A stretch of 64,000 nt of DNA from Phycisphaeraceae bacterium (GCA_020831765.1 JAFIFY010000111.1:1-64000); one strand, 5' to 3'; shown: positions 11,517-32,187, numbered from the stretch's first letter. Notes: a model not told the origin generated them from the letters alone. A program made the numbers and translations.

Positions 11517-11582
11517 ATCCTGTGCTCCTGTTCTCGTATTCGACTTCCGGTTCACATGTCCCAGAGCCGCAACGAGCGAATA

Positions 11583-13580
11583 TCACCGATCCAATGGCCG
11601 TACCGTCCAGGTCGGCCGCTCACCGGTCAAGTCCACGATCAATTCCCGCCGGCCATCGCGGACCGTCATCCTGCCACTGTTGACCGGAATGGACAGATAA
11701 GGCGATTCGAATACGGGCCAATCCGCGAAGATAAGCTGTTCGCCGTTGACCGAGGCCCTCGGCTTGCCGCCGGGACGATCGACGGTGGCCGTGTTGCTCA
11801 TGGCAAGGTCATCACCGGCCAGGGATCGAAAACGGACCGTGCGTCGCTGCTCATCGAACTCTGAAAGATCCAGGCGGGTGTCGGCCATGACGGCCCGGAT
11901 GAATGCCTCAAGATCGGCGTAAGCGGGTCGCTCGCCAAGTTGAACCACCCAACCACTGAGTCGCCCCGGGCTGACCAGCCATTGCCAGCCGCTTGGGCTT
12001 CGCGGCTCCCGATGCATGACCTGTTCATCGGTCGCCCAGTCGGCCTTTCCGTTCAGTGGCCGCGCGGCCAGATACGCATCGCCCACCCGCCAGAAGTACC
12101 AGCCTTGGCGCACCGTGGGCTTACCCACCGCTTCGGGCATGCCCAGAATGCTCTGCTCGCGGACCCGGGCGCGTCGGGCCTCATCATTGCCGACCATCGC
12201 CGGATCGACATACGCCACATGAATCGCCGCGGCCCCCTTCTGGTGATACTGGTCAAAAGGCGTGCGCCCTTCCAACGGAAAATGGCCGTGATATCCCGAC
12301 GAGATGCCGAAGGTTCGGACCGCATCGGCATCGCGCAGCAGCGCCTTGAACATGGTCGTCTGCGGCAGAATCGTCCCGGTGATCGCCACGCCGGTTTCAT
12401 TGCTGTACAAGGTCCCCATCGCGAAATTTTCAGCGAAATAAAGCACTTCCTGGTCCTTGTTGTCTCCAGTGAATCGGCCGTGCCGGTCCGGCTCGTTGTA
12501 ATAGACCGGCTTGCTGCCGCGCGATTCAAAAGGCAACGGAACGTCCTTTCGCGCAAGATTGCGGATGATCGGATGTGGCTGGTAATCGCTCATGGCCATG
12601 ACGACCGCGGCGTCCTCGATCAGCAGCGTCCGCGAATCCGGATCATCCATGGGCACGTAGCCCTGCGTGTGACCAGTCCACAGCCATGAGATCCAATCCA
12701 TGCGGCTGCCAGTGCCGCGATGGGTGAACTCGGCGCCGCCCTTGCCGTGAATCGGCTGCTCGCCTTTGGCCGCGCCCACCGCCTCGTGCGCGAATCCGCG
12801 GGATTCAGGCCCCAGATGAACCCCGTGGAAATACTTGAGCGCCATGGATGCGGCGAACCAGTCAATTCCCGCGCGGCCATAATCACGCATCACCTCATCG
12901 CGGGCGAAATCCGCGATATTCAGGATCGAAGCGCTGCTGAAACCGTAGTAAGTCGAACTGTCATACTCCCCCGCGCCCTGGTGATACCAGCGTCGTATCT
13001 GGCCTCGTATCCAATCGCGCACCCACGCCGCATCGCGACCATCCCGAACGACCGGGTCTTCCACCCGTTCGCTCCAGAGGAAGCCTGAAGCCCGCTGCAT
13101 GATGCCGTGGTTCTCCGTTCCACCCCGCATCATGATGTGATAGAAGTGCCTGGCATCGTATTCGTTGCTTTTGCGCACATCTTCAGGCAAGCGATCGCCG
13201 AACTGAAAATACATCCGCGCCCGAAGGTAGGCGGCAAAGTGGTAAAGGCCCCGATCGCCCTTGGCCCTGTCCACTTCCATCAGGTGGCGATAGGCGGCAA
13301 GGGCGTTGGCATCCTCCACATCAAGGGCCAACTGCGCCAGGACGGCGGGTAGCACGTACTTGTGCGGATCGCCGTGACCGGTCTGGGGCCAGACGCGTTG
13401 CGACCATTCGGCGGTTTTCATCGCATCCTGATGGGCGATCTGCTTGAGATACCAGTGCTGGCGTTGGGCGAACGTCGATGCTTCATCGGTATCCATCACC
13501 GTGATGCGCTCGACAGCGGGCCCGGCGCAGCCGGCCACGATGATCGCCGCGAGAATCGGGAGGGCCAAAAACCTGTTCAT
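11583..13580 (-). CDS. large secreted lipoprotein, possible polysaccharide lyase-like toroid protein
   Basis: A 665-residue lipoprotein: the signal peptide MNRFLALPILAAIIVAGC ends in a lipobox with Cys near 18. The start ATG at 13580 has AAGGAAGG five bases upstream. The first 400 or so residues are helix- and aromatic-rich (HFYHIMMRGGTENHGIM, YDSSTYYGFSSASILNIADF), which recalls the alpha/alpha-toroid of heparinase and alginate lyase-like proteins. Toward the C-terminus beta structure dominates (MTVRDGRRELIVDLTG). The His and Asn in GGTENHG and the Tyr in STYYGF would be candidate active-site residues if it is a lyase. That is inference from overall shape; I do not recognise the exact family. 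It lies between the transport unit and the glycoside hydrolase on the same strand. Confidence 0.6.
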   Translation of the reverse strand: MNRFLALPILAAIIVAGCAGPAVERITVMDTDEASTFAQRQHWYLKQIAHQDAMKTAEWSQRVWPQTGHGDPHKYVLPAVLAQLALDVEDANALAAYRHLMEVDRAKGDRGLYHFAAYLRARMYFQFGDRLPEDVRKSNEYDARHFYHIMMRGGTENHGIMQRASGFLWSERVEDPVVRDGRDAAWVRDWIRGQIRRWYHQGAGEYDSSTYYGFSSASILNIADFARDEVMRDYGRAGIDWFAASMALKYFHGVHLGPESRGFAHEAVGAAKGEQPIHGKGGAEFTHRGTGSRMDWISWLWTGHTQGYVPMDDPDSRTLLIEDAAVVMAMSDYQPHPIIRNLARKDVPLPFESRGSKPVYYNEPDRHGRFTGDNKDQEVLYFAENFAMGTLYSNETGVAITGTILPQTTMFKALLRDADAVRTFGISSGYHGHFPLEGRTPFDQYHQKGAAAIHVAYVDPAMVGNDEARRARVREQSILGMPEAVGKPTVRQGWYFWRVGDAYLAARPLNGKADWATDEQVMHREPRSPSGWQWLVSPGRLSGWVVQLGERPAYADLEAFIRAVMADTRLDLSEFDEQRRTVRFRSLAGDDLAMSNTATVDRPGGKPRASVNGEQLIFADWPVFESPYLSIPVNSGRMTVRDGRRELIVDLTGERPTWTVRPLDR

Positions 13581-13673
13581 GCATCCTTCCTTTCCAAACA
13601 AGCCGCCCGATCGGCGGCGACCACCCGGATGATGCGCACGCACCGGGCCGACCGCATCGATCCATGACCAGAA

Positions 13674-14558
13674 TCATTGATGGTCGGACATCTGGCTGAC
13701 GGTGATCTTGACTTCATCCCGGTCGGCGATCCGCTTGATCCGGCCATCCTCCATCCAGATGATGCGGTCGGACTGGGCCAGCATCTTATGGTCGTGCGTC
13801 GAGCAGATCACGGTGACGCCCTGCTCGCGGTTCATTTCCTTCATCAACATGATGATCTCCTCGCCGGTCTTGAGGTCCAGGTTCGCGGTCGGCTCATCGG
13901 CCAGAATGATCGCCGGCCGATTCGCGAACGCCCGGGCGATCGCCACGCGCTGCTGCTGGCCGCCCGAAAGCTCCTTGGGCGTGTGCAGCAGGCGGTCGCC
14001 CAGCCCGACGCGGCCGAGAATCTCCACGCCACGATCCTGCGCCTCATCACCGGGCAGACCGGCAAAGAGCATCGGAAGGGTCACGTTCTCCAGCGCGGTC
14101 ATCACCTTGATGATGTTGTAGCTCTGGAAGATATAGCCGATCTTTCGGCATCTGAGCCAGGCGAGTTCATTGGCGTCGAGCTGGGCCACATCGATCTCAT
14201 CGATGAACACGTTGCCCGAAGTGGGCTTGGTCAGTCCACCGATGCAGTTGAAAAGGGTCGTCTTGCCCGATCCGGACGGTCCCATGATCGAGATGTACTC
14301 ACCGGCGGCGATGTTGACCGTGACATCGTCCAGCGCCTTGATGATCTGTTCCCCCATGCGGTAGTGCTTGGAGACGTTGGAGGTCATCACCGTCTGGTCC
14401 ACCTGCCGATCGAGATCGGCGAACCAATCGACCCCCCCTTTGACGAGTTGCTCAGCGCGGGCATCGGGATGACCGGAATCGACGGCGGCCGTCGCATCGA
14501 GCCGAGCGTCGGGGGACCGGAGCGGCCGACCGGACAACAGAGGATTGCGTTCGCTCAT
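13674..14558 (-). CDS. ABC transporter ATP-binding protein, LolD/MacB type (second ATPase of the unit)
   Basis: A 294-residue ATPase with a 55-residue hydrophilic extension before the ABC domain. Motifs in order: Walker A GPSGSGKTT, the Q-loop IGYIFQSYNI, the signature LSGGQQQR, Walker B AIILADEPTANLD and the switch His in STHDHKM. The GYIFQ and LSGGQQQRVAIARA pattern is that of the LolD/MacB/FtsE group, which partners FtsX-type permeases. Its ATG overlaps the stop of the 214-residue FtsX permease by four bases (ATGA), so the two are a pair. It shares unusual positions with the other ATPase of the unit (26800-27534), such as LRC before the Q-loop, which suggests duplication. The real start is 14558, with a GGGGAG-like site upstream. 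Confidence 0.92.
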   Translation of the reverse strand: MSERNPLLSGRPLRSPDARLDATAAVDSGHPDARAEQLVKGGVDWFADLDRQVDQTVMTSNVSKHYRMGEQIIKALDDVTVNIAAGEYISIMGPSGSGKTTLFNCIGGLTKPTSGNVFIDEIDVAQLDANELAWLRCRKIGYIFQSYNIIKVMTALENVTLPMLFAGLPGDEAQDRGVEILGRVGLGDRLLHTPKELSGGQQQRVAIARAFANRPAIILADEPTANLDLKTGEEIIMLMKEMNREQGVTVICSTHDHKMLAQSDRIIWMEDGRIKRIADRDEVKITVSQMSDHQ

Positions 14559-15199
14559 TTTTCTCCCCTCATGGCTTCGATCGGGGGCATCTTGGCAGCG
14601 ATCTGCGCTGGAATCGCCGCGCCCAGCGTTGTCAGGCCCATTCCGATCAGCAGGACGAAAATCACCTTGAGCGGCAGCCCGCCGAAACCGACATGGCTCC
14701 AGAACGCGCCACCGTAGTCGGCCACGCTCAGGAGCAGCGAAATGGCCAGCCCGATGATGACGCCCAGCCCCGCTCCAACCAGTCCCAGCAACGCCGCTTC
14801 GACCAGCACACTGAAAAGAATCAGCCGGTCCAGCCCGCCAAGGCACTTGATCGTGCCGATCTCCCGATACCGCTGACTCACATTCATGAGCATGGTGTTG
14901 AGGACGCCCGCCGCCGCGACCAGCAGGGCCATGACGAACATCAGCAGAAACCCCTGAACCTCGCCGGCATCGCGGTCGGTCCGCAGCCCCATCATACCGG
15001 CGACCCCGTCATGAAACGGAGCATTGGGATCGGCATAGGGCATGGTCAGCAGATACATCATGAAGGCGGTCGTGGTGGCGATGGTCAGACCGGTGATGAA
15101 CGCGCGCCCCATGCGCACCTTCAGACTGCTCATCGCCAGAGCCCAGACCAGGTCGGCCCGAAGGCGAAGCTCACCGATTTGCCACTCTGCTTTTTCCAT
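14555..15199 (-). CDS. minimal FtsX-family ABC permease
   Basis: A 214-residue permease with four membrane segments: about residues 33-52, 84-105, 125-160 (possibly a long or re-entrant pair) and 180-200. The loop between the first two is only about 30 residues, far shorter than the MacB-type periplasmic domain. The features that place it in the FtsX superfamily are the VLNTMLMNVSQRYREIGT coupling region, the IKCLGG motif, and the C-terminal PAQIAAKMPPIEAMRGEK, which matches the conserved proline-and-Ala end of such permeases. The start ATG at 15199 has AGGAG eleven bases upstream. Its stop overlaps the ATPase gene. It probably dimerises with itself or works next to the giant permease; that is not shown by sequence. 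Confidence 0.85.
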   Translation of the reverse strand: MEKAEWQIGELRLRADLVWALAMSSLKVRMGRAFITGLTIATTTAFMMYLLTMPYADPNAPFHDGVAGMMGLRTDRDAGEVQGFLLMFVMALLVAAAGVLNTMLMNVSQRYREIGTIKCLGGLDRLILFSVLVEAALLGLVGAGLGVIIGLAISLLLSVADYGGAFWSHVGFGGLPLKVIFVLLIGMGLTTLGAAIPAQIAAKMPPIEAMRGEK

Positions 15200-15243: not shown

Positions 15244-17385
15244 CTAATACCCCACGCCCACCGATGTCCAGAGGAAGTTGATCGCGATCGCCAGCATGCC
15301 CGTCAAGCCCAGACCCGCGCCAAAGCCCACGGCCAGGATGGGTGCGTAGTTGGTCCATCGCTCGCGGCCGAACCGCCGCGCCAGGTAGAAGCGGCCAAGG
15401 CAAGCGCCGATGAAGATCGGAATCGCCATGTGCGGATAGCCGTTCATCGCTCCAATGCCGCCATAGATGTATTGGGCACTGAGCCCCACCGTATGGAACA
15501 GGCCGAACAGCGCGGTGCAGCCGATGGCCACGAACGCGATCACGCCCGGCTTGATCGCCTCCATCAGCATGCTCTGCCCTTCGCGGAGACCGGTGGCCCA
15601 GACGGCCTTGATCTGGGCGAACTGGGGCCAGAATTTCTCGACGTAGGGATAGTTCTCCGATGGAATCGGGCCCAGACTGTCCACGTAGTTCCAGAAGATG
15701 AACGAAGCCACCAGCATCAGCGGGAAGATGAGCAACTCGGCCTTGAGAATCGAGGTGAATCGCGTACGGGTCAGTTGCGTCTCGCGAAGCAGATCACTCA
15801 TGCCGCCGTAGTTCTGCAAGGGCAGCGGCGCGAACCAGATATTGAGCCCGCGGTGCTGGCTGATGAACACCGCGCTCTCGAAGACAAAGGGAACGCCGGC
15901 GCTCTGCCCGGCGATGCCGCTCATCCGGGCGTTGATGTAGGTGTTGATCGGCGTCCAGAGGAAGGCGAACCCGATCAGCCACCAGATGCTGAAACGCTCT
16001 TCGGCCTCGACCCCATCGTTGATCAGGTAATACGAAAGCGCCACATAGCCGGCCGAAGCCAGGAGCCAGACACCGATCGCCAGCCCGGTGCTCGGATCGC
16101 CGCGCTCCTTATCGCGCCGCCAGAACGCCGTGGGATCGACGGTGACCTTGTCGAAATCCCGCACCACACGCTGGCCGACTTCGTCGGAGTCGCTGGCTTC
16201 ACCCGCGCCGGGCGCCGGCGAGCTCGATGCGGCGGCGACCGCATCCATCCGCTCCCTGCGTCGCTGGGCGCTGAACTTGCGCCACGCTCGAACCATGCCG
16301 AACAGGCCGACGAAAAACACGGCGAACGCGGTGCCGATGCCCACCGAAAGATAAACATCCAACGTCGCCGCCACGTGGGTCTGGATCGCATCCTTGCCCG
16401 GCTGCCAGTTGGGCAGATAGCCCAGGGGTTGGAGGATCAGCGGGTTGATGGCAAGCTGGAACGCGATCGTGGTGAAGAACATGCCCACCACGATGCGCCA
16501 GGGCAGCACGAAGCCGGTGAACAACAGCCCGAGGTTCAAAGCAATGCCGATGGTTCCGCCGGGCAACAGATGCTCGAACGTGGTGGTCAGGTCGAGGAAC
16601 GGAATCGGAAGCAGCGTGATCGGTCGCCCGAGAAAAGCCTGACTGAGCGTGGGGATGGCCACATAGAACAGGCCGAAGACCGCGCCGATCATGACGCCGA
16701 TGGAAAAGCAGTACTGCCGATAGCCACGCTTGTTCTTCTCCTGGCTGGTCTCGGCCAGCGCGATGGCGCCTTCGGCGTGAATCGGGGCCAGCGGGAACGG
16801 AAGCTTCTCGACATCCGAGGTGACCTTGTAGGAGAGAAAGCCCAGCGAGAGCTGCGTGAGCTTGGAGAGCACCATGCTGCCGACCATGACCGCCATCGCC
16901 GGCAGCCAGACCGAGGAGGTCAGCGGTTCAAAGGCCTGGTCGCCGTAGGGGGAGAACCAGATCGGGATTTTGTGACCGATGCCGAAGTTGGCGAACGCCT
17001 CGGAATTGGTCATGTAGCGGTTGAAGATGAGATAGGCGAACACGCCGCCACCAAGCATCACCCCTCCGGAGATATGCGAGAGGTGACTGACGGTGTATTT
17101 GAGGATATAGAGTTCCTGCTTGCGGAGCTGGATGAAGGATCGCCTGGCCAGTTCCACGAAGAGGATGATGGTCACCCAGTCGGCGGCGGTGCCCATATCC
17201 TGCCCGATCATCAGTCCCATGAAGATGATGCCCGGCAGCATGACGAACGCGATGAAAAACGCGCCGACGACGGTGCGCCAGGTGAAACCGGTCTCATACG
17301 GTTCGTGCTGGATCGCCTCGATGCTGAACTTGGCATCGTAGAACGTTTCCTGGGCTTTGGGCTGGGGCTCGGAGTCCTTGGCCAT
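15244..17385 (-). CDS. OPT-like polytopic membrane protein
   Basis: A 713-residue protein with about twelve or more hydrophobic segments spread through the chain and a hydrophilic cytoplasmic-looking stretch around residues 380-440 (RRERMDAVAAASSSP). The motif EKLPFPLAPIHAEGA at about residues 193-207 resembles the signature of oligopeptide-transporter (OPT) family proteins. The ATG at 17385 is only three bases after the stop of the giant permease, with AGGAGG inside that gene 14 bases upstream, so translation is coupled. A related, larger protein lies at 23649-26753 and shares the xLxFPL motif. Substrate and mechanism are not evident. This could also be a member of the DUF6784/DUF6785 group, which I associate with such gene neighbourhoods from memory. 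Confidence 0.7.
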   Translation of the reverse strand: MAKDSEPQPKAQETFYDAKFSIEAIQHEPYETGFTWRTVVGAFFIAFVMLPGIIFMGLMIGQDMGTAADWVTIILFVELARRSFIQLRKQELYILKYTVSHLSHISGGVMLGGGVFAYLIFNRYMTNSEAFANFGIGHKIPIWFSPYGDQAFEPLTSSVWLPAMAVMVGSMVLSKLTQLSLGFLSYKVTSDVEKLPFPLAPIHAEGAIALAETSQEKNKRGYRQYCFSIGVMIGAVFGLFYVAIPTLSQAFLGRPITLLPIPFLDLTTTFEHLLPGGTIGIALNLGLLFTGFVLPWRIVVGMFFTTIAFQLAINPLILQPLGYLPNWQPGKDAIQTHVAATLDVYLSVGIGTAFAVFFVGLFGMVRAWRKFSAQRRRERMDAVAAASSSPAPGAGEASDSDEVGQRVVRDFDKVTVDPTAFWRRDKERGDPSTGLAIGVWLLASAGYVALSYYLINDGVEAEERFSIWWLIGFAFLWTPINTYINARMSGIAGQSAGVPFVFESAVFISQHRGLNIWFAPLPLQNYGGMSDLLRETQLTRTRFTSILKAELLIFPLMLVASFIFWNYVDSLGPIPSENYPYVEKFWPQFAQIKAVWATGLREGQSMLMEAIKPGVIAFVAIGCTALFGLFHTVGLSAQYIYGGIGAMNGYPHMAIPIFIGACLGRFYLARRFGRERWTNYAPILAVGFGAGLGLTGMLAIAINFLWTSVGVGY

Positions 17386-17388
17386 GGA

Positions 17389-20300
17389 TTACTTCGATGC
17401 CTCCTTGAAAATGGCAGCGCCTTCGTGGATGAACCGGCTCCGCGATGCATCGTCCAGGTTCCGCCAAAGCAGGAACTGCTGGCGCACCAGGTTCAGGAAG
17501 CCGTAATTGGTCCGCGACCAGGATTCCTCGGTGCCGCTGGCCCGGCGAAGATCGATGGTCACCCCGAACACGCCCTCGTTGGGCGTGGGATGCACGTTCA
17601 TCTGAACGTGCTGGGATACATCCAGGTCATAGGGGGCCAGCCACATGTCGCATTTGACCCGCAGCGCATCCTCAGCTCCGGCCAACATGTCCACGGCCAC
17701 ATCCCGGCAGTTGAAGTCCGTGCTCGTGGCCTCGCTGTGGTTGAGCAGGAACCGCCTGAAGAAAGCCATCATGCCCACCGCATTGCCGCGCGTCAGCGTG
17801 AAGGGCAGGCTGAAGACGATCCGGCCGGTCTCGACCGGCTCGGGCAGGTCCCACTTGGCCATGCCCGACGGCGCCGCCAAGGCCGCGGCCTTACGCGCCG
17901 GCACCAGCGTCGCCACCAGCACGACCATGCCCGTGGCCATCGCCAGCAGCATGGCGATCACGCTGGTGAAGTTGAAGGACAACTCGGTCAGAACCTCGAT
18001 GTTGAAAAACGCGTTCGCCGCCGGAATCGCCCAGGCGAACGCCAGGCCCGCCAGCGTGCCGAAGATGATTCCCAGCACCGAGAACACCATCGATTCGCTC
18101 AGCAGCAGGAACGAAATCTGATTCGGCGATAGTCCGATCGCCCCGAGCATGGAGACTTCTCCCTTCCGCTCATCCACCGCGCCCATCATGGTGTTGAGCA
18201 CGATCAGGATGCACAGGAGCACGGGCACGATGACCTGCGCCAGTCCGGCGACACTGCTCTGCGTTCGCGTGGTGATCAGGCTCAGTCGATTGTCGAAGGT
18301 GCCGAACATCGCATAGTTGATCCGCAACTCGATATCCCGGCGAATCTGCTCAATGTTGTGGCGATCCGGCTCAAAGCGGATGGCCAGCGACTTGGGCGTG
18401 ACCCCGACGCGGTCGGCGGCCAGCATGGGCACGGTCACCAGTCGCTGCCAACTGTAACTGAGCGAAGGCCCTTCGTTGATGAGATCGCCAGAGGCCGCGG
18501 GGGTGAACGCGCTCATCAGGAAATCGACCATCGCCAGGCTCCGCCCGGTCAGATCGCGATAGCGATCCGCCTCGTCGGTATCCATGATGCCCACCACGCG
18601 CCACGGCATGTTGCGCATGAAGACGCGAGGCAGTTCATCTTCCGGGCGAAGCGACGCCTCACCGGCGGCGATCTGCTCAGGCGTGCCATCGAAAATATCC
18701 TCGGCCGCGATGCCCAACTCCGCCGCCGCATTGTCGGGAAGCATGATCTGGAAGGGATAGGGATCATCTTCAGCGAACCAATGTTGATTGCTGATGGTCT
18801 GATGCAGGTGGCTGAATCGAACTTCCTGAGGCTCAAAACCCATGATGCCCGTGGCGATGAAGGGCGGCCCGACCCGGGGGATGGTCAGCACATCATCGGC
18901 CTCGGGCTGCTCCTCGGGCCCCAGACCATTGGCAATGCGGATGGCGCCGGCCTCCGCGCGGCGAAGCTCGGCGATCTGTTCCACCGTCTGACCCGATCGA
19001 ACCCTGTGACGATCGGGCATGCGGCGAACTTGGATCATGTTCCGCCCTTCGCGGTCGGCGTTGTTGCCCCCGGCGACCTCGATCCAGAAACCGCGAATGG
19101 CGACTTCATGCTCATCACCGAACTCGCTCTTGATCGCCGAGACGAAATCGCGGCCCAGGTCACGCCAGTTGTACTCCCGGAACACCACGCCTTCGAACTT
19201 CGGCTCCAAAGGCTCGACCGTCCGACCCTCGATCCGGTCTTCCAGCGATACATGGGACTGCATCAGCGCATCGCGCCCGCTCACAGAAACGAACGTGATG
19301 ATACTGAAGGTGAGCACGGTGACGGTCAGCGAGGTGAGGAACGTTCGGCTCGGCCGCTTCTTGAGATTGCTCACACCAAGGGACAGCGCCGTGGCCAGGG
19401 AGGCGAAGAAGCTGATCTCCTCGCTCTCCACTTCACCGGCCGAAGCGCGGGCCCGCCGCACCAGCACATCGAACCGCTGATAACAGATGCCCAGCACCAC
19501 GATGGACATCAGGATCATCACGAAAGCCACGATCACGATGAAGGGCGAAACGGCGATGAGCAGCGCCGGATGCGTAAACTGAAGGAAGACGACCACCAGC
19601 GCGAAAAGAATAGTGGTGCCGATGAGCTTGCGAATGATCGTCTTCGAGCCAACCACCAGCCTTTCGAGGAACCAGCAGCCCGGAACCAGAATGCCCATGA
19701 GTATGACGGCTGAGAAGATCGCCTCCCGTCCAAGCTGAAGAATCCGCGGATAGGCCCGCTGAAGCATGCCCCAGGACACGCGCGCTTGCCCGTAAGCCGC
19801 CTGCCATTGTCCTTCCTTGGCGGCTTGTTCAGCGCGTGCAAGCAACTCGTCGGCGCGAACCAACGCATCATCAACCGACTGATCGCGCAGGTTGCGCGAG
19901 GCATATTGGCCCTGGCGCTGCCTGGCCAGTTCATTCATGTCCCGGGCGATCTTGAGCGGCGTCATCTCCAGGAAAATATTCGGATCGCCATCGGCCGTCT
20001 GTCCGATGATATAGCCGACACCCCGTCGCGCAGCCCGGAACCGCGCCTCTTCCGTGCCCTCGGCGACACCGGGGATCGGACCGGTCAACAGCATGGGGAA
20101 GCCGGTGCCGCGCTGGGCGACGATCCGTGCGCGCCGGCCCGGTTGCATGTAGAGAATGTTCGATTCGGTGCCGATCTCCAGATAGCGGAGCAACGGGTTG
20201 TCGATGCCGAAATGTTCCGGCTGCCCGCCGGTGACGGCGTCGGTGATGACCAGCTCCTGGCCGGGCGACGCCACCGAGCGATAGTCCACCGGGTCCGGTC

Positions 20301-23300
20301 CGGGCGCGAACACCCAGGGGTAAACCTCGGTGACGATCAGGTTCTTTTCCGTGACCCGATCCGCCACCAGGCTGAAGTTGAACGTCTGCTGCTGCGTGCC
20401 GATCTGCGCTTCATTGGCCACACGATTGACCAGCCCCTGTCCAATATCCATGCCGTAGGCGTAGACACGGGGCGTCGAATCGCGCATGAACGTGAGCGAC
20501 TCGACCGGGAACTGGTAATTGCCGTTTCGCCGCGATTGGGCCACGAAACCCATCCGGCCGCCGTAAAGCGTCGATGAGTTGATCTGCCGGCCACCGGCGG
20601 CCGTACGGGGCAGATTCGGGCTGTAGACCAGCACATCGGGAACCGGATCCTGGGCATCGATGCCCGAGCGGGCATTGAATTCGAGGATGCGACCCGACAG
20701 CCGACCGTAATCGATCCTTGGAAATCTGTCCGGGCTGGATGAATCCAGATGGCTTTCCAGACCCAGGGCGATCAGCGTGATCGCGGTCTTGAACTGCGGG
20801 GCAAGATGGTCGGCCGCCAGCCGCTCGGGGACATCGCGCGGCGTATCGAGCTTGACCTTCTGCTCGTTCATCGTCACCAACGGAAGAAGACCCACGTTCA
20901 CCGATGCCCAGAAGTCGGTGTAGTGAACCGGAACCCGCGGCATCTGGAAGGGATGATCCACGGCATCGGCCTCGGTGAGGAATAGCCAATCCCGCTCCCA
21001 GCGGCCGCGCACCGTCGCCACCGTCATCACCTCGCGCATCCGTGCGTTGATGCTGTTGATGTACGTGGCGTTCGACGCGACCGGCGGCCGAACCCTGAAT
21101 GGCGCTTGGGTTTCCAACACCAGACCGGCCGATGGGCCGCCATCGGAAAGTGAAAGCATCCAACCCATCAAGGGCGACCCGACCACCGCCCGGTCGCCTT
21201 CAGCCCGATCGCGCTGGGCCGAGGGGTGAATGACCTCGATGATGCCGTCGATCACATCGCGGTTGGCCAGAACGTAATCCCGCTCGGTACGTTCCTCCTG
21301 ATATTCCTGCAAAAGCCGCTCGCGGAGGAGTTCGGTGCGCAGTGATGGGTCCGGCAAGGTGCCTTCGCGATCGCGTTGCTCCACCAGGCGCCAGAATCGG
21401 TAGGCTCGCTCCGTCCAGGGCAGCGAACGATTCATGAGCGTGGAATCGCGCATCTCGGCGATGTCGAGCGTTATCGCTTCGGCGGCGCGTATTTCACGCT
21501 CAAGCTGGCTGAACTCATCCGTGCCTCGCCTGAAAGCGGCTTGTCTGCGTCCCACCGCGGCCGCCTCGTCAGCCTTGTCCGCGCGGGCCGCTTCCACGCG
21601 GCGCGTCAGCCAGTCCTGCACGAACCACTCAGCCGCATCCGCGCTCAGGCCCGTCGGAGCCGGGTTCTCAGCCCACTCTTTGAGTTCGGTGTAATAGGCC
21701 AGGCGGGTTTCCGGCGGCAGAACATCACCGAGGAGCCCTTCGCGGTTGTGGGCGATGACCACGACGGTCGCCCCGAACGCGCCGAACAACACGGCGGTGA
21801 TCGTCCCCGGCAGCCACCGGCGGCTGAACGGTTTGGGGTTGTCCGGTTCGCCACCGGCCAATACGTAACCGATGAGCCATCCGATACCGCCGGCGATCAG
21901 GATGCCCATGATCAGGCCGAAAACGGGAAAGGGTTTATCACCCTCGCCGATCCCGACGAGCCGATTCTCACGGAGCAGAACGTTCTCGGCGAACAGACGG
22001 CTGCTGTACCCTCCAAGGTATTCGGCATCGAGCAGCGCGATGACCAACCCCTTGCGCCGCACACTCTCGGCCGCGGCCGTACCCTCACGGGTCAGGAATT
22101 CGAGCAGGCGAATCGCGGCCGCGATGTTGGTGGCGGTGGTGGCGCCGTGCGCATGATCGGGCGCGACCGACACGCTGTCGATCGACACGGTCAACATGAC
22201 CGAATCATCGAGGTTGGGAATCGTCAATCGCCCTGACGGAATCGACTGGCCATCGGCCAGGTCATTGGCGCGGCGAAGCGAGGCGACATTAGGCAATCCA
22301 TATTGCGAGACCAGGCGGCGCGCAAGATCATCCTCACGCACCCGGTAGGTCGTACGCCGCGAGGTGATGAGCAGCTCAGTGCCCTCGGTCAGATTGGCGA
22401 AATCGACATTGGGATTGTCATCGATGATCCGGCGCGGCTCGGTGCCGAATTCCGCGGCCACCCTCCGCAGCAGTTCATCCTCGCTGATCGTGATGACCAG
22501 GGGCTCGGTCGGCGGCAGATAGAAATACATCGCCTCATAAGGTCGATTCTCGTAGATGTGGCCGCCGGCCACGACCGCATCCATCGGCTGCGCCGGGCCA
22601 TCAGCCTCGCGGTCGCGCAGGCCCAGCATCCGGTAGAGGTCCGGGCCACCGTTCTCGGCCACACGTCGAATTTCGCGCGTCGAAAGAAAGAATCGCGGAG
22701 CTGGAATCGGGGTGTTGGCAAAGAGCGTTTCCGCCCGTTCGCGGGTGATCTGATCGCGAGGGCTGTCCGGCGGCCCTTCGATCACCACCACGGCCCGGAC
22801 ACCGAGCCCGAACAACGCCTCGAAATTCCTCCCCCCCGCGAAGTCCATGACCGCAATCGCCCCTCGGAGTTGAAGACCGTTGAGATCGGCCCAGTCCCCT
22901 TCACCGACATAAACCAAGGGGCCCGAAACGCCGCCTTCCGGTGTCAAAGAGGTCATTACCCCATTGGGCCAGAGCGGCGAGAGGCTCCACTGGCCGTCGC
23001 CCACGGTCAGGGTGGATGGCTCGGTGCGCGGGCCCGGTTCGCGGAGGTTGCTGAGCTCCACCGGGGCCATCACCTGACCTCGAAGCGAGCCGACATACTC
23101 GAGGTCGGCAAATCGCCCTGATTCGGACCCGAGCACGCCCCACAGCCACTGATGCAAACCGCCTCGCTCCGTTTCCGGATCGAGCAGTTCCGCGCGCCGT
23201 GCGCCGACACTGAGGCTGTCACTGAGCGTCCGGACCGTCGATCCATCGCCGCGTCGATGGGTGCCGTCGGCCTGCCGCTGGCGGAAGTAGAACACGCCGC

Positions 23301-23649
23301 GCCCCTGGGCGTTGATTTCGTAACCGATCTGGCCGCGTATGCCGCCCTCGACGGTCAAATCCCGCTCATCGCCGAGCAGGAACCGTCGCTTGCCCGATTC
23401 ATCCACAATGTACGGCTGCTGAAGCACCGCATCGATCACCCGGCGGATTTCCTGCTTGTCGCTGAGCTGCTCGACATGGCGCAGCGCATCGGGATGGAGC
23501 GTGTTCAGATCGCTGATCGCCTGACGACGAACGGCATCCATGCCGCTGAACCGATCTTCGGCCACCGGACCGGCCGAAACCCGGGCTGAGAGCAGGGTGG
23601 CCAGCAACAGGCCGGCGGCGAGGATGAATGGAGTGCGGATCGGTGGCAT
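17389..23649 (-). CDS. giant FtsX-type permease with PA-like, LysM-like and degenerate M28-like domains
   Basis: A 2086-residue protein. A signal-like segment (about 5-26) is followed by a beta-rich region, then a PA-like fold around 243-300 (LRGAIAVMDFAGG then LGVRAVVVI). Two LysM-like repeats follow (about 384-430 and 434-478; the second begins TYRVREDDLARRLVSQYGL and ends SGRLTIP). Next is an M28-peptidase-like stretch (about 480-560) with HGATTATN and LLDAEYLGGYS, where the metal ligands of true M28 enzymes look lost. Hydrophobic pairs lie near 576-598 and 612-632, a large exterior domain covers about 650-1305, and three segments lie at 1308-1390. A full FtsX module covers about 1432-1917 (VLNTMMGAVDERKGEVS; three closing segments), with a third LysM-like repeat (about 1547-1592, RHRVRSGQTVEQIA) in its exterior loop. 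The ATG shares one base with the upstream stop (TGATG). Confidence 0.78.
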   Translation of the reverse strand: MPPIRTPFILAAGLLLATLLSARVSAGPVAEDRFSGMDAVRRQAISDLNTLHPDALRHVEQLSDKQEIRRVIDAVLQQPYIVDESGKRRFLLGDERDLTVEGGIRGQIGYEINAQGRGVFYFRQRQADGTHRRGDGSTVRTLSDSLSVGARRAELLDPETERGGLHQWLWGVLGSESGRFADLEYVGSLRGQVMAPVELSNLREPGPRTEPSTLTVGDGQWSLSPLWPNGVMTSLTPEGGVSGPLVYVGEGDWADLNGLQLRGAIAVMDFAGGRNFEALFGLGVRAVVVIEGPPDSPRDQITRERAETLFANTPIPAPRFFLSTREIRRVAENGGPDLYRMLGLRDREADGPAQPMDAVVAGGHIYENRPYEAMYFYLPPTEPLVITISEDELLRRVAAEFGTEPRRIIDDNPNVDFANLTEGTELLITSRRTTYRVREDDLARRLVSQYGLPNVASLRRANDLADGQSIPSGRLTIPNLDDSVMLTVSIDSVSVAPDHAHGATTATNIAAAIRLLEFLTREGTAAAESVRRKGLVIALLDAEYLGGYSSRLFAENVLLRENRLVGIGEGDKPFPVFGLIMGILIAGGIGWLIGYVLAGGEPDNPKPFSRRWLPGTITAVLFGAFGATVVVIAHNREGLLGDVLPPETRLAYYTELKEWAENPAPTGLSADAAEWFVQDWLTRRVEAARADKADEAAAVGRRQAAFRRGTDEFSQLEREIRAAEAITLDIAEMRDSTLMNRSLPWTERAYRFWRLVEQRDREGTLPDPSLRTELLRERLLQEYQEERTERDYVLANRDVIDGIIEVIHPSAQRDRAEGDRAVVGSPLMGWMLSLSDGGPSAGLVLETQAPFRVRPPVASNATYINSINARMREVMTVATVRGRWERDWLFLTEADAVDHPFQMPRVPVHYTDFWASVNVGLLPLVTMNEQKVKLDTPRDVPERLAADHLAPQFKTAITLIALGLESHLDSSSPDRFPRIDYGRLSGRILEFNARSGIDAQDPVPDVLVYSPNLPRTAAGGRQINSSTLYGGRMGFVAQSRRNGNYQFPVESLTFMRDSTPRVYAYGMDIGQGLVNRVANEAQIGTQQQTFNFSLVADRVTEKNLIVTEVYPWVFAPGPDPVDYRSVASPGQELVITDAVTGGQPEHFGIDNPLLRYLEIGTESNILYMQPGRRARIVAQRGTGFPMLLTGPIPGVAEGTEEARFRAARRGVGYIIGQTADGDPNIFLEMTPLKIARDMNELARQRQGQYASRNLRDQSVDDALVRADELLARAEQAAKEGQWQAAYGQARVSWGMLQRAYPRILQLGREAIFSAVILMGILVPGCWFLERLVVGSKTIIRKLIGTTILFALVVVFLQFTHPALLIAVSPFIVIVAFVMILMSIVVLGICYQRFDVLVRRARASAGEVESEEISFFASLATALSLGVSNLKKRPSRTFLTSLTVTVLTFSIITFVSVSGRDALMQSHVSLEDRIEGRTVEPLEPKFEGVVFREYNWRDLGRDFVSAIKSEFGDEHEVAIRGFWIEVAGGNNADREGRNMIQVRRMPDRHRVRSGQTVEQIAELRRAEAGAIRIANGLGPEEQPEADDVLTIPRVGPPFIATGIMGFEPQEVRFSHLHQTISNQHWFAEDDPYPFQIMLPDNAAAELGIAAEDIFDGTPEQIAAGEASLRPEDELPRVFMRNMPWRVVGIMDTDEADRYRDLTGRSLAMVDFLMSAFTPAASGDLINEGPSLSYSWQRLVTVPMLAADRVGVTPKSLAIRFEPDRHNIEQIRRDIELRINYAMFGTFDNRLSLITTRTQSSVAGLAQVIVPVLLCILIVLNTMMGAVDERKGEVSMLGAIGLSPNQISFLLLSESMVFSVLGIIFGTLAGLAFAWAIPAANAFFNIEVLTELSFNFTSVIAMLLAMATGMVVLVATLVPARKAAALAAPSGMAKWDLPEPVETGRIVFSLPFTLTRGNAVGMMAFFRRFLLNHSEATSTDFNCRDVAVDMLAGAEDALRVKCDMWLAPYDLDVSQHVQMNVHPTPNEGVFGVTIDLRRASGTEESWSRTNYGFLNLVRQQFLLWRNLDDASRSRFIHEGAAIFKEASK

Positions 23650-26600
23650 CAGTACACCTTCGGACTGTACGCGGGGACATCAACGAACCGGTTGATCGCA
23701 TCACCGACCTCATCCGTGCCCACCGCCTCGACATACAGCGAGAGCAACAGGTCGGTCATGTTGAACGCGAACACACAGAAAACCGCGCCGACCACCATGC
23801 CGATGAACAGGGGCTTGGCGCTTTTGTAAGTATTCATGCCCCCGTACTTGATGATCAACTTTTTGCAGATCCACGCGACGAAGACGCTGCCCCACAGGAA
23901 GCTGCCTTCGGTGCCGATCAGCGGATCGTGCTTATTATACGGCGAAATATGGGGGAACCAGATGCTGGCCAGGATCAGGAAGTACCCGATCGGATGCAGG
24001 GGGAAGCCCAGGAACCTGGACCGAAGCAGGCTCAGCCCGGCGTAGACCCCAAAACCAACCATCATGGCCCCGATGCGGATCCCGATCGGGGATGTGAACG
24101 AATCCAGACCCGGCTCTCCCAGAAAGTGGCTGACCCAGAGCGTGTACGCCAGGGCGCCGTATGAGTTGATGGCCCCGACGCCTTCGGCCGTATAAAACTC
24201 GCGTCCAAAGAAGTACGCCAGCACGATGAAGCTGAACATCCCCACCGCCAGCGCCACCAGGAACGAAAGCAGCGTCGCCACGGCCAGGGTTCGGTAATTC
24301 AGTTCGTGACGGCGCGCAAGTTCAATGTTTTCAAGCTGCTGCGGTAGCAGCCGACCCAGGAGCGTCAGCGGCAGAATGGCGATCGTCGTAAACAGCGCAA
24401 AAGCGCGCGACCCCAGCCAGCCGGTCATCCCCAGCAGCATCGGAAGTTTGAAATAGTCGTAAAACACGTGCGTGGTGTGGAGCCCCGTCTCGGCTCGAAC
24501 ACGGGCCATCGCCAGAATCTGGGCGAAAAAGAGGGCACCCACCAGGATCAGGAAGATCACATTCGTGATGCCGAAATCGTAAAGCAACAGCACGATGATG
24601 ACCGGCAGCAGCCCCAGCCCGAGCCTGGTCAGGCCGGGCGAGACATAGCTGCCCAGTTTGGGGTTCGTCGTCGGCGCCTTGGACCGGATGGTCTTGATCA
24701 GCGACAGCACACTCAGGGCGACACAGGCGCCCAGCAACTGTTCCATGTGGAAGGGGAAAAAGCGACCGCCGCCGTAGCCCAGGTAGGACCTCTCGACAAA
24801 AAGCGTCTCGGGCGCGGCCTGGCGGATGATCAGCAGCGCGACCTGGTAGAGGCAGAACAGCACCCAGATCGAGAAGGAGATTTCCAGGCTCACCAGAAAC
24901 GCGATGCCGATCACGATCGGCGAGAGCACCAGAAAGACCTTGTCCATCTCCCGGAACGCCCCGGTGGTGAAGAAATTCTCCGAGACGTTAAATGCCACGG
25001 TGAACTGCGCTTCCATCATCTGATGATGATGCAGCGCTTCGAAGAATATCCAGGAAAACCCGATCAGCATTCCGCAGAGGAACACCCAGTTGAACATTCC
25101 CTTACGCCACCTGGGGCGATGAATGTCCTCGGCGGTCTCCAATTCCATGTCGTGACGGATGATGTGGTCGGCGACCTCGACCAGCGGAAACGCCAGGTTC
25201 TCCCGTTCGATCCACTTGCGCCGGAGCCACTCGGCCAGGCACATCAATGTCAGGAACATCACCGTCAGCAGCAGGAACCACCGCACCAGCGGCCCGGCCC
25301 AGACTTTCCAGGGAATCTCCGGAAGCACAGCATTGAACACCCGGTCGAAGAATCCCAGCCGGCGGGCTTCGTCACGCTCGTGAGGTTCGCTCCATACCGA
25401 GACCTGCAGGCTCCGCATGTTCTGGTTGGGCTGCCCATCACGACGCTCGGCACGCGGCGCCAGGATGAATCCACGCTCACGCGTGCTCATCCGAAGCACC
25501 ATGCTGGCCCGGACCTCATCGTACGCCTGGCGGCTGATGGCCTCGAAGCGCCCGCGGTGGTGCTCACGAAGTTCCTCTGAGTCGGGGGCGAGCAATCCGA
25601 ACCGAACCTTGTAAACGTTGGTCAGTTCCTCGCGCAGCAGTCGATCATCCCGGCTGCTCAGCCACGCCATGTCCTCGCGCAAACGCTGTACCAACTCCAC
25701 ATCTGGCCGAGCCCCGGCATCCTGACCATACTGCTCAATGACCACTTCCCGAACGGCAAGTGCCTGAGGGTCCTCAAACTCGGTCGCCGCATCGGCCCAT
25801 TCGCCCAAGGTGGCATCGAGCAGGGCGATCCGCCGCTCCAGCAGCGTCAGCATCTCGATATCCTGACGATTCCGATCCCGCAAGACGCGCTGGTAGGCCG
25901 AAAAGTCATTGACCCGCATCGAGCGCATCCGGTCGGTTGTCTGGCTGGCGTATTCCTCGCCAAAATGCACCAGTACCCGGCTAAGCCGCTCCAGGGCCGC
26001 CCGGCTCTTCTCCTGAGCGTCCTGCAGCAGCGTCTCCAACACCGCCTCGGTCAACCCCAGCCCCTCGGCGGCCTGAAGCGTCCATTCATCGCGGGTCACC
26101 AGTCGCGAGGTGCGATCGACCTCATCCACACCCAGATCGGGCAATCGCTCGGCGACTCGCCGCCGGAAGGTCTCCAGTTCCTCTTCCTGCTGACGCCTTG
26201 CCTCTTCGGCAAGCTCCAATTCCGCCTGTCTTCGAAGAAGATCGGCTCGGAAAGCCAGCATGTCGGCGATCGTGTCCTGGGCGCCACTGCGCAACGCCCG
26301 GATTCGCCGGTCATCCAACTGCTGCTGCAGGCGATAGCTCTTGTGCCAGGCCAGCGCTTCGGCATTGGGCGGCAATGGCTCCCATCTCGTGTTGCCCGCG
26401 TGATAGCGGGTGTGATAGGTGTTCGTGCCATTGATCATGTACTCGAACACCGGCACCATCATGGCGATGTAAACCTGCCGAACCAGGCCGATGTTCATGA
26501 CCGGCGCGGCGATGGTGAGCATGCAGTAAAGCAGCACCACGTTCCGCCGATCGAGCCAGCGACGACCGGAAATCCAACGCACCACCGCCAGTGAAAGAAT

Positions 26601-26753
26601 GAGACTGAAAATCAGCCCGACCGCCCAGCCAACGGGCGTGGCGGTTTCGATATCCAGATGAATCGTGTTGATCGTGAGGAACTGGCTCAACGGAGCGATC
26701 ACGGCGATCAGCACGAGGCCGAGCAGGATGGTTGCCAATCGGGAAGCGGTCAT
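23649..26753 (-). CDS. large OPT-like polytopic membrane protein (DUF6785/6784-like)
   Basis: A 1034-residue protein. Three to four hydrophobic segments lie in the first 105 residues. They are followed by a long hydrophilic, strongly charged and probably partly coiled-coil domain (about 125-470, e.g. EEARRQQEEELETFRRR at about 183-199), and then a second half with about ten membrane segments from residue 485 on. At about 516-530 there is RENLAFPLVEVADH, a parallel to the EKLPFPL motif of the 713-residue neighbour, so the two look like relatives. MARVRAETGLHTTH lies in a loop of the second half. The architecture fits the DUF6785/DUF6784 type membrane proteins as I remember them. The stop overlaps the start of the giant permease by one base. 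The ATG at 26753 is preceded by a short AAGGAA site. Confidence 0.7.
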   Translation of the reverse strand: MTASRLATILLGLVLIAVIAPLSQFLTINTIHLDIETATPVGWAVGLIFSLILSLAVVRWISGRRWLDRRNVVLLYCMLTIAAPVMNIGLVRQVYIAMMVPVFEYMINGTNTYHTRYHAGNTRWEPLPPNAEALAWHKSYRLQQQLDDRRIRALRSGAQDTIADMLAFRADLLRRQAELELAEEARRQQEEELETFRRRVAERLPDLGVDEVDRTSRLVTRDEWTLQAAEGLGLTEAVLETLLQDAQEKSRAALERLSRVLVHFGEEYASQTTDRMRSMRVNDFSAYQRVLRDRNRQDIEMLTLLERRIALLDATLGEWADAATEFEDPQALAVREVVIEQYGQDAGARPDVELVQRLREDMAWLSSRDDRLLREELTNVYKVRFGLLAPDSEELREHHRGRFEAISRQAYDEVRASMVLRMSTRERGFILAPRAERRDGQPNQNMRSLQVSVWSEPHERDEARRLGFFDRVFNAVLPEIPWKVWAGPLVRWFLLLTVMFLTLMCLAEWLRRKWIERENLAFPLVEVADHIIRHDMELETAEDIHRPRWRKGMFNWVFLCGMLIGFSWIFFEALHHHQMMEAQFTVAFNVSENFFTTGAFREMDKVFLVLSPIVIGIAFLVSLEISFSIWVLFCLYQVALLIIRQAAPETLFVERSYLGYGGGRFFPFHMEQLLGACVALSVLSLIKTIRSKAPTTNPKLGSYVSPGLTRLGLGLLPVIIVLLLYDFGITNVIFLILVGALFFAQILAMARVRAETGLHTTHVFYDYFKLPMLLGMTGWLGSRAFALFTTIAILPLTLLGRLLPQQLENIELARRHELNYRTLAVATLLSFLVALAVGMFSFIVLAYFFGREFYTAEGVGAINSYGALAYTLWVSHFLGEPGLDSFTSPIGIRIGAMMVGFGVYAGLSLLRSRFLGFPLHPIGYFLILASIWFPHISPYNKHDPLIGTEGSFLWGSVFVAWICKKLIIKYGGMNTYKSAKPLFIGMVVGAVFCVFAFNMTDLLLSLYVEAVGTDEVGDAINRFVDVPAYSPKVY

Positions 26754-26799: not shown

Positions 26800-27534
26800 T
26801 CAGTCGCTGATCGAGCCGATGGAAATTTCCAGTTCTTCGCGGGAAACGATCTTCTCGACTTCACCACTTCGAAGGTAGACCACCCGATCCGATACATCGA
26901 GCATGCGGTGGTCATGGGTTGCCGAGACGACCGTAACCCCCTTCTTGCGGGAAAGATCACTCAGGAGCGTCACGATGGCCAGGCCGGTTTTGGAGTCGAG
27001 GTTGCCCGTTGGCTCATCGGCCAACAAAAGACTGGGGTCATTGGCCAGTGAACGGGCAATGGCGACGCGCTGTTGCTGTCCGCCCGAAAGCTCTCCAGGC
27101 AGGTGATGCACGCGGTGGCCCAGCCCGACTTCTTCGAGCAATTGCGTCGCCTTGGCCTGGGCCTGATGGTCATCCATCCCCAACAGCCGCATCGGAAGCA
27201 TCACATTCCAGAGCGCGCTGAAGACTTCGACCAGGTTGTAGTTCTGAAAAATGTAGCCGATGTTCACGCAACGCAGATACGCCAGCTCCGCCCCGCGAAG
27301 CTTGCTCAGATCGCGGCCACCCAGCTCGATCGAACCGGCTGTGGGAAAGTCCAGGGCCCCGATCATGTTGAAGAACGTCGTCTTCCCCGATCCGGATGGG
27401 CCCATCAGAGAGACGTACTCGCCCCGGGAGACGTCCAACGTCACATCCTTGAGCGCATAGACCGCGTCCTCGGCCGTTCGATAGACACGTTCGACACTGC
27501 GGGCGCGGATCAGAACGTCACTGGATGCGGCCAT
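26800..27534 (-). CDS. ABC transporter ATP-binding protein, LolD/MacB type (first ATPase of the unit)
   Basis: A 244-residue ABC ATPase of the LolD, FtsE and MacB group: Walker A GPSGSGKTT, Q-loop IGYIFQNYNL, signature LSGGQQQR, Walker B LLLADEPTGNLD and the switch His in ATHDHRM. It probably drives the giant FtsX permease that follows two genes later, and it begins the compact minus-strand unit. The ATG at 27534 is used here; a TTG five codons earlier (27549) is possible but weakly supported. A gap of 46 bases separates it from the 1034-residue membrane protein. The region upstream (27535-27997) holds no gene and may contain the promoter. Compared with the second ATPase it lacks the hydrophilic N-terminal extension. 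Confidence 0.92.
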   Translation of the reverse strand: MAASSDVLIRARSVERVYRTAEDAVYALKDVTLDVSRGEYVSLMGPSGSGKTTFFNMIGALDFPTAGSIELGGRDLSKLRGAELAYLRCVNIGYIFQNYNLVEVFSALWNVMLPMRLLGMDDHQAQAKATQLLEEVGLGHRVHHLPGELSGGQQQRVAIARSLANDPSLLLADEPTGNLDSKTGLAIVTLLSDLSRKKGVTVVSATHDHRMLDVSDRVVYLRSGEVEKIVSREELEISIGSISD

Positions 27535-27815
27535 GGGCGAGAGTCTCAAACAACCGGTCGGAACCAGCTTGAACTATTGATTCTGCAATCGATTACGGCA
27601 ATCGACACTGGCGGAATCCGGAGACGACCCGCCCCAGCATCCTCCGGCGCGATCACACTCCGGCGGAGCGAAAAACGTAGTGTACCAGCGGATCGAAACG
27701 TGGTTTCTTGCCACGATTCGCAAAAAACGTCCAGCACACCCAACAGTCGGCTCCGACCGTGGAAGGCGCGACGATCTCCAGCCGCTGATCGCAGGGAAGC
27801 GATCCCATCCCCGCA

Positions 27816-31305: not shown

Positions 31306-32187
31306 TCACCTTCGTCGAATGAGCACCACCAACCCACCGAGCGCCATGAAAACCACGGTGGCAGGTTCAGGTATGTTCTGTGACATAATCATGGTGACAT
31401 ACGCATCAACCAGCAAGCCACTACCCGGCACTTCCTCATATCCAATAAGAATGAACGTTTCCTCATCCCACACCTCAAAAGTCAACTCGCCCATCTCCCG
31501 TTGGCCGGATCGAGGATCGATGAATTCGATGGTCGCCTCTTCACCCGGCTGAAGCTTGCCATCCCCATTCGCATCCTCCCAGCACAACTTGACGACCGTA
31601 ACATAATGAGCTTTTGGCTCGTCGGACTGGACATCCCATGCAATGAGAATCTCAACAGCGGCACAGCCTTTTAGCTGATCCACCAGAAAGTCAATCTCTG
31701 GAGGTTTCTTGTCCGCAACCCAGTCATGATCACCCCCATATTCATGATACGACTGCGCTCTGTACTTAGTCTTGCCAGGCGCAACTTCTTCCATGTACGC
31801 ATACTTTCCATCGATGAAACGATTATACGAGACCCCGCCAGGACCACAGTCCATATAGGACAACCCCCCGAGTATCTCCGCCACCTTCTTCATATCTTCG
31901 TATGTATCGGGTTCGCCATCATCATCTTTGTCACCGATGAGATAACTGTTGAAGTGTTGCGGGTACTTGCGTTGGAGGTAGAGGAACCCATTGACGGCGG
32001 CGACCGGACCGCACATGGTCTCACCCCCTTCCCCGATATCTCCTTGCTTCAGATTCCCGAACAGGGTTCCGTCAGGATCCTTGTCAATACAGACCTTGGC
32101 CCCCACGGCCACCGACGAAACAAGCCCCATGAGCATTACGGCACACGCGATCGCACACAGCCGGGAATAGATTTGACCAGACATCAT
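31306..32187 (-). CDS. PEP-CTERM protein with a papain/C39-like domain
   Basis: A 293-residue secreted protein: a signal peptide (about residues 1-29, ending AVGA), then GETMCGPVAAVNGFLYLQ with the Cys-Gly-Pro arrangement of papain-like C39 domains, later AHYVTVVKL with a candidate catalytic His, and IEFIDPRSGQ with a candidate Asp. The C-terminus is IPEPATVVFMALGGLVVLIRRR: a PEP motif, hydrophobic stretch and Arg tail, which is the exosortase sorting signal. It also contains a calcium-like acidic run (DKDDDGEP) and a second (DANGDGKLQ) that resembles an EF-hand or dockerin loop. I infer a cysteine peptidase-like protein tethered or secreted via exosortase, whose enzyme is not in this window. 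A minus-strand promoter and structured leader lie upstream. Confidence 0.8.
   Translation of the reverse strand: MMSGQIYSRLCAIACAVMLMGLVSSVAVGAKVCIDKDPDGTLFGNLKQGDIGEGGETMCGPVAAVNGFLYLQRKYPQHFNSYLIGDKDDDGEPDTYEDMKKVAEILGGLSYMDCGPGGVSYNRFIDGKYAYMEEVAPGKTKYRAQSYHEYGGDHDWVADKKPPEIDFLVDQLKGCAAVEILIAWDVQSDEPKAHYVTVVKLCWEDANGDGKLQPGEEATIEFIDPRSGQREMGELTFEVWDEETFILIGYEEVPGSGLLVDAYVTMIMSQNIPEPATVVFMALGGLVVLIRRR

Follow-up and report, generated by a model that had tools for sequence, protein, structure and literature searches.

What could one bacterial membrane protein do with a permease module, a peptidase-like ectodomain and three LysM modules resembling those of cell-wall enzymes? The question is raised by a minus-strand gene at positions 17389-23649 of a 64,000-nucleotide stretch of Phycisphaeraceae bacterium DNA (GCA_020831765.1 JAFIFY010000111.1:1-64000), the whole of which we call the window. 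A sequence-only reading of the window had described the product as a 2086-residue protein with an FtsX module, and the gene is indeed one unbroken frame of 2086 codons. We conclude that the protein is a type VII ATP-binding cassette (ABC) permease carrying a PA and M28 fold from which the metal ligands of active M28 enzymes have been lost.

The permease module is of the type VII kind

Pfam detected FtsX (PF02687) at residues 1810-1922 of the window protein with 56.3 bits against a cut-off of 25.5 (4.3e-15), and found the domain in all 29 of the aligned family members; we regard this identification as unambiguous. An AlphaFold2 (AF2) model of the C-terminal 817 residues (predicted local distance difference test [pLDDT] score of 76; predicted template modeling score of 0.53) matched MacB in a Foldseek search (3.7e-9), as well as LolCDE and HrtBA/HrtB. 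A MacB-like exterior domain was recognized by Foldseek between transmembrane (TM) helices 1 and 2, and MacB_PCD was matched by Pfam in 14/29 members. LolD/MacB-like partner ATPases are encoded near the permease and are kept in relatives too. On these comparisons, we classify the FtsX module as a type VII (MacB/LolCDE-like) permease. Type VII ABC proteins use ATP to drive work outside the membrane, often with a function set by a partner, and FtsEX and YbbAP-TesA act with envelope hydrolases (PMC12646458). The term "membrane pump," used in the sequence-only reading, is therefore a poor fit, since proteins of this class usually perform mechanical work on the outer side of the membrane and do not, as a rule, move substrates through it. 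The domain that follows the FtsX helices (residues ~1935-2086) is highly conserved, with W-L-A-P-Y/F-D-L-G-V-x-Q in relatives, and shows a weak helix-grip/SRPBCC likeness in Foldseek (E 0.05-0.14).

The ectodomain contains a PA domain and a pseudo-M28 domain

When the window protein was scanned alone, Pfam called neither PA nor M28 (M28 reached 13.4 bits, under the cut-off). Across the 29 aligned members, it matched M28 in 27 (best, 6.9e-15) and PA in five. A 27-sequence profile of residues ~125-975 retrieved the Aneurinibacillus PA+M28 aminopeptidase (PDB 2ek8) at 1.6e-20, 6hc6 at 1.3e-19 and nicalin at 2.9e-8, and the alignments to 2ek8 and 6hc6 spanned the N-terminal M28 part, PA and M28. 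With a narrower profile, the gamma-secretase chain 4uis_A, which we take to be nicastrin, ranked first (7.9e-6) and nicalin next. The AF2 model of residues 125-975 was weak overall (mean pLDDT of 55.6); Foldseek matched it to 2ek8 at 1.5e-10 and also to PaAP, PSMA and transferrin receptor (TfR1). The domain assignments are well supported, and so, by profile and model comparison, is the presence of a PA and M28 fold in the permease ectodomain, as had been suggested earlier. A TM hairpin at residues 579-633 interrupts the M28 fold, an insertion that recurs sporadically in relatives (L069, L127, L165, L039).

We then compared the domain with the M28 metal ligands (H, D, E, D, H). S489 stands at the His position, T505 at the bridging Asp and Y544 at the second Glu, and the last Asp and His positions are likewise changed (alignments, judged by eye). 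The motifs HGATTATN and DAEYLGGYS, already singled out as altered in the sequence-only reading, fall at M28 metal-site motif positions. In two family alignments, the metal His was retained in 1/29 and 5/26 sequences and the metal Asp in 1/29 and 3/26. Because the ligands are lost across the whole family, loss of the site is old and general, and the alignments identify the domain as an ancestral pseudo-peptidase, not one that is recently decaying. The earlier word "decayed" calls for correction on this point. An active M28 peptidase is ruled out by the lost metal site, and decay limited to this genome by the breadth of the loss. The suggestion that the domain binds rather than cuts is borne out as far as the ligands are concerned; it probably grips peptides.

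LysM modules are nested in the permease

The Pfam cut-off for LysM is 20.9 bits. LysM 1 barely exceeded it (21.3 bits, with residues 375-485 scanned alone), and LysM 3, in the FtsX exterior loop, scored 23.2 bits at residues 1548-1591 in the full-length scan. LysM 2 is supported by the orthologue L069 and by a PDB alignment, in which the LysM 1+2 pair matched the tandem LysMs of 4s3j, a cortical-lytic enzyme, at E=6.6e-4; its match to 4uz2 was weaker. L069 is 54% identical to the window protein overall, and in it Pfam found three LysM stretches at E=4.4e-14 (52.6 bits), so the weak single-sequence scores are not attributable to chance. A frame error or fusion artefact is likewise ruled out, since L069 shares the architecture. 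An HMM (hidden Markov model) built from poribacterial LysMs only matched the window protein weakly at 387-423 and 1547-1562. At 11.5 bits, the score of the whole protein exceeded the best of 500 shuffles (6.8); the scores of single domains did not.

The paired repeats and the third in the exterior loop, all proposed earlier, were therefore recovered by Pfam, L069 and 4s3j. Rather than unrelated folds or an absence of matches, the profile and Foldseek searches returned PA+M28, and Pfam and PDB comparisons returned LysM. The structural evidence was uneven: the M28 fold was matched, with its metal site lost, and the model of residues 375-480 contained strands and helix pairs whose order approximated beta-alpha-alpha-beta, at low pLDDT, but the loop LysM was poorly modelled. 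At the FtsX-loop site, LysM-free relatives have just 2-32 residues, and ahead of the M28 'DS' strand they have a simple turn; given such short loops, the LysMs are best described as nested insertions, not appended domains.

Glycan-type modules differ between lineages

An alignment-based search of a genome contig collection confirmed at least 539 relatives, which are giant type VII ABC permeases of ~1500-2500 residues; a search of the same collection with the window protein sequence alone found none. The best 80 of the 539 come from Poribacteria, Armatimonadota, Latescibacterota, 'Zipacnadia'/WS1, Desantisbacteria and others. In the host's taxonomic family, 18/51 genomes (its own included) gave a match at E<=1e-10, and in a sample of its phylum the permease module was present at E<=1e-60 in 40/294 genomes. 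A search of the host's own genome for PSCyt2 gave no match. One genome of the same taxonomic family (G059) encodes at least seven giant permeases (L071, L072, L074, L075, L077, L078, L083), a marked paralogue expansion.

A local LysM HMM (E<=1) matched 44 of 107 long open reading frames (ORFs), namely, the window protein, L069 and 42 from Poribacteria, although this HMM was seeded partly from these proteins and is biased towards them, and some of the poribacterial scores were weak. The poribacterial LysMs lie within PA, at two loops different from those used in the window lineage and close to DGxDNDxDG repeats, and Pfam confirmed LysM in L088 and L155. These two poribacterial proteins (L088:4955-12427 and L155:5126-12256; ~2400-2500 residues) have two LysMs in PA, and their DGxDNDxDG-type repeats look calcium-binding. 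In a Desantisbacteria relative (L100:6844-11748), the M28 region is instead interrupted by an F5/8 type C domain at residues 360-477 (2.4e-19). The local HMM found no LysM in 14 longer giants elsewhere in the host's phylum, and a Pfam scan found no extra module in eight longer giants of that phylum.

This distribution indicates that the LysM modules are late, lineage-specific insertions and not ancestral. On the simplest account, LysM would have been acquired on two or more occasions, each at its own site, with a single gain of another type of sugar-binding module. Separate gains of glycan-type modules suggest that glycan contact is useful to the machine but not essential; the core function must be something other than wall binding, since LysM is missing from most relatives beyond two lineages. 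Coupling of the pump to a wall or glycan polymer, as proposed earlier, would accordingly be a variant only.

The same data bear on whether the LysMs bind glycan at all. They could be evolutionary baggage, loop fillers without glycan binding in a protein whose core function is that of its LysM-free relatives. Comparison of the two orthologues gives an identity of only 29-42% for the LysMs, with LysM 3 the lowest segment measured, and relatives outside the two lineages have none. However, the window protein and L069 keep all three at matching sites although they are only 54% identical overall, and LysM and F5/8 type C domains at other loops elsewhere suggest selection for glycan contact. We consider the baggage explanation quite improbable.

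Operon setting and conserved partners

The permease gene is part of an operon, judged by its layout: its start codon and the stop of the DUF6785 gene just upstream share bases (TGATG), and the OPT-like gene, preceded by AGGAGG, starts 3 bp past the permease stop (Table 1). The conserved gene set comprises one or more LolD-like ATPases, a small FtsX protein, an OPT-like transporter and a DUF6785 protein. Among 59 relatives with >=6.5 kb of downstream sequence, an OPT-like or DUF6785 gene was in the locus in 58, and a closely related ATPase was in the fetched locus in 49. Pfam did not match PF03169 (OPT) in the product of 15244-17385 or in the relative L100; in the relative L107, PF03169 was matched over most of the model at 2.7e-5 (23.5 bits; cut-off, 25.8).

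Table 1. Predicted features of the permease and its neighbouring genes
Feature	Coordinates	Strand	Remarks
Giant type VII (FtsX/MacB-like) ABC permease, PA + pseudo-M28 ectodomain, three inserted LysM	17389..23649	-	2086 residues; Pfam, profiles, Foldseek
Signal peptide / N-terminal TM	23572..23649	-	Residues 1-26; hydropathy
N-terminal part of M28 fold, ahead of PA	23020..23277	-	Residues ~125-210; family profile aligned to 2ek8
PA domain	22645..23010	-	Residues ~214-335; profile match 2ek8/6hc6, PA in 5/29 members, AF2 blocks mostly pLDDT 70-93
LysM 1	22360..22503	-	Residues 383-430; in hairpin turn ahead of M28 'DS' strand; Pfam, PDB 4s3j, L069
LysM 2	22213..22356	-	Residues 432-479; orthologue L069, local HMM, PDB alignment
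Pseudo-M28 domain	20755..22200	-	Residues ~484-965; metal ligands changed; TM hairpin and helical insert interrupt fold
TM hairpin inside M28 fold	21730..21927	-	Residues ~575-640; hydropathy
Conserved region, possibly beta-sandwich / carboxypeptidase-regulatory-like	19960..20697	-	Residues ~985-1230; weak: CarboxypepD_reg in 2/29 members, best E 0.017
Extra TM helices and canonical FtsX TM1	19270..19752	-	Residues ~1300-1460; hydropathy, model
FtsX/MacB-type exterior domain	18256..19272	-	Residues ~1460-1798; MacB_PCD in 14/29, Foldseek
LysM 3	18874..19017	-	Residues 1545-1592, within FtsX exterior domain; Pfam full-length scan
FtsX TM2-TM4	17860..18252	-	Residues ~1800-1930; Pfam, model
Conserved C-terminal domain	17392..17847	-	Residues ~1935-2086; signature W-L-A-P-Y/F-D-L
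LolD-like ABC ATPase 1	26800..27549	-	Listed start TTG; ATG 5 codons further downstream
DUF6785/DUF6784 membrane protein	23649..26753	-	Stop overlaps permease start codon
OPT-like transporter	15244..17385	-	No own Pfam match; relative L107 and conserved gene order
Small FtsX-like permease	14555..15199	-	Start at 15199 inferred
LolD/MacB-like ABC ATPase 2	13674..14558	-	Start 14558 or 14387; longer listed ORF probably over-extended

The neighbours bear on the direction in which such a machine would work. In MacB/LolCDE-like export or outer-envelope delivery, the ectodomain would accept cargo from the membrane, be it peptide, lipoprotein or polysaccharide, and pass it outward, with the LysMs bridging the wall layer. 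The top structural matches of the permease are MacB and LolCDE, and the ATPases score best against the MacB, LolD and DevA models, though under those models' cut-offs. However, the conserved gene set yielded neither a MacA-like adaptor nor a TolC-like channel or LolA-like carrier, and characterised OPT-family proteins are importers. We think export unlikely.

The LysM domains and an FtsX fold with an exterior domain would also suit an FtsEX-like mechanotransmitter for wall remodelling, in which ATP controls a wall hydrolase or synthase, the LysMs hold the complex at the septum or sacculus, and other proteins dock on the pseudo-M28/PA region. FtsEX and YbbAP-TesA set a precedent for action with envelope hydrolases (PMC12646458). 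We nonetheless doubt this reading and hold it to be improbable: no wall hydrolase was identified among the conserved neighbours, the partners (OPT, DUF6785) are transporter-like, and LysM is lacking in most relatives beyond the two lineages.

Downstream of the gene set on the minus strand lie genes for a 686-residue lipoprotein-like protein with no Pfam match (11583-13643) and for a 967-residue protein with faint glycoside hydrolase family 39/42 signals (8652-11555; E ~0.2-0.3, below the cut-off); neither product had PDB matches. Elsewhere in the window, 31306-32187 (minus strand) encodes a secreted 293-residue protein with a PEP-CTERM-like tail, PEPATVVFMALGGLVVLIRRR, at its end.

Proposed mechanism

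Our preferred, still tentative reading, which we judge nearly as likely to be right as wrong, is that the locus encodes an uncharacterised type VII ABC system, an ATP-driven, wall-tethered peptide receptor that feeds an OPT-like transporter. The large permease, the small FtsX protein and the ATPases would form one complex, in which ATP binding and hydrolysis would set the outside domains in motion by mechanotransmission. Movement of the ectodomain by the ATPases follows from membership in the type VII family; the remaining steps, including glycan binding and peptide hand-off, we infer. The PA/pseudo-M28 region would act as a non-enzymatic receptor for peptides or protein chains and would hand captured ligand to the OPT-like and perhaps also the DUF6785 transporter, with the OPT-like protein as the inward route. 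LysM modules usually bind cell-wall sugar chains. In the window lineage, they may tether the ectodomain to peptidoglycan or another N-acetylglucosamine polymer, which would keep the receptor at the wall and might let it select peptides linked to the wall.

Several observations weigh against this reading. Most relatives outside the two lineages have no LysM. LysM 3 scored only 18.1 bits, under the cut-off, with the loop scanned alone, is the least conserved segment measured between the orthologues (29% identity) and lies in a low-confidence AF2 block, its loop being poorly modelled; on these grounds, it may not bind sugar. LysM 1 and 2 fall in a low-confidence part of the residue 125-975 model. 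The OPT assignment depends on a single relative, whose score falls slightly short of Pfam's threshold. Finally, no family member has been characterised, and the evidence is computational.

A broader version of the wall-tethered receptor proposal, which we consider rather unlikely as a whole, would place the window protein in a new class of type VII ABC machines, conserved across several phyla, as its wall-tethered form. In such machines, ATP would move a non-catalytic PA/M28 receptor that supplies an OPT-like transporter with peptides, which may derive from the wall, and repeatedly gained glycan modules in different loops would target a polymer. As part of the same proposal, the receptor would be the same kind of protein in bacteria as nicastrin, nicalin and transferrin receptor.

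The type VII ABC class itself is known, and we found none described with a built-in pseudo-peptidase, inserted LysMs and an OPT-like partner. The open-licence literature searched held no paper on this permease family and none naming DUF6785. The family is common in little-studied phyla, and establishing what it does would assign a role to many giant proteins that lack annotation. It would also test the idea that a lever driven by ATP can work on a receptor bound to the wall.

Comparison with known systems

The window permease shares with MacB, LolCDE, FtsEX and YbbAP the FtsX transmembrane fold, an exterior domain between TM1 and TM2 and separate LolD-like ATPases. It differs from them in being ~5x the length of LolC/LolE, in its extra TM helices ahead of FtsX TM1, in its N-terminal PA/pseudo-M28 ectodomain, LysM insertions and conserved C-terminal domain, and in having OPT-like and DUF6785 proteins as partners. 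The tandem LysM pair matches the LysMs of cell-wall enzymes (4s3j, 4uz2, LytE) in sequence, but the modules are nested in permease domains rather than appended to a wall hydrolase.

With the PA+M28 aminopeptidases (2ek8, YwaD 6hc6, PaAP), the protein shares the order M28 N-terminal part, PA, M28; unlike them, it lacks the metal residues, is fused to an ABC permease and has LysMs and a TM hairpin in the fold. Nicalin, nicastrin and transferrin receptor are non-catalytic M28 relatives with receptor or scaffold roles. Nicastrin and nicalin share with the window protein a degenerate M28 signature around 'DS....APGA', and transferrin receptor has the same fold, although the overall sequence similarity of the region is greater to M28 enzymes than to nicalin or nicastrin. 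These three proteins are eukaryotic and have no transporter fusion, and their roles cannot simply be carried over to the window protein. In its working, it would resemble a receptor of the nicalin/transferrin-receptor type mounted on an ATP-driven lever.

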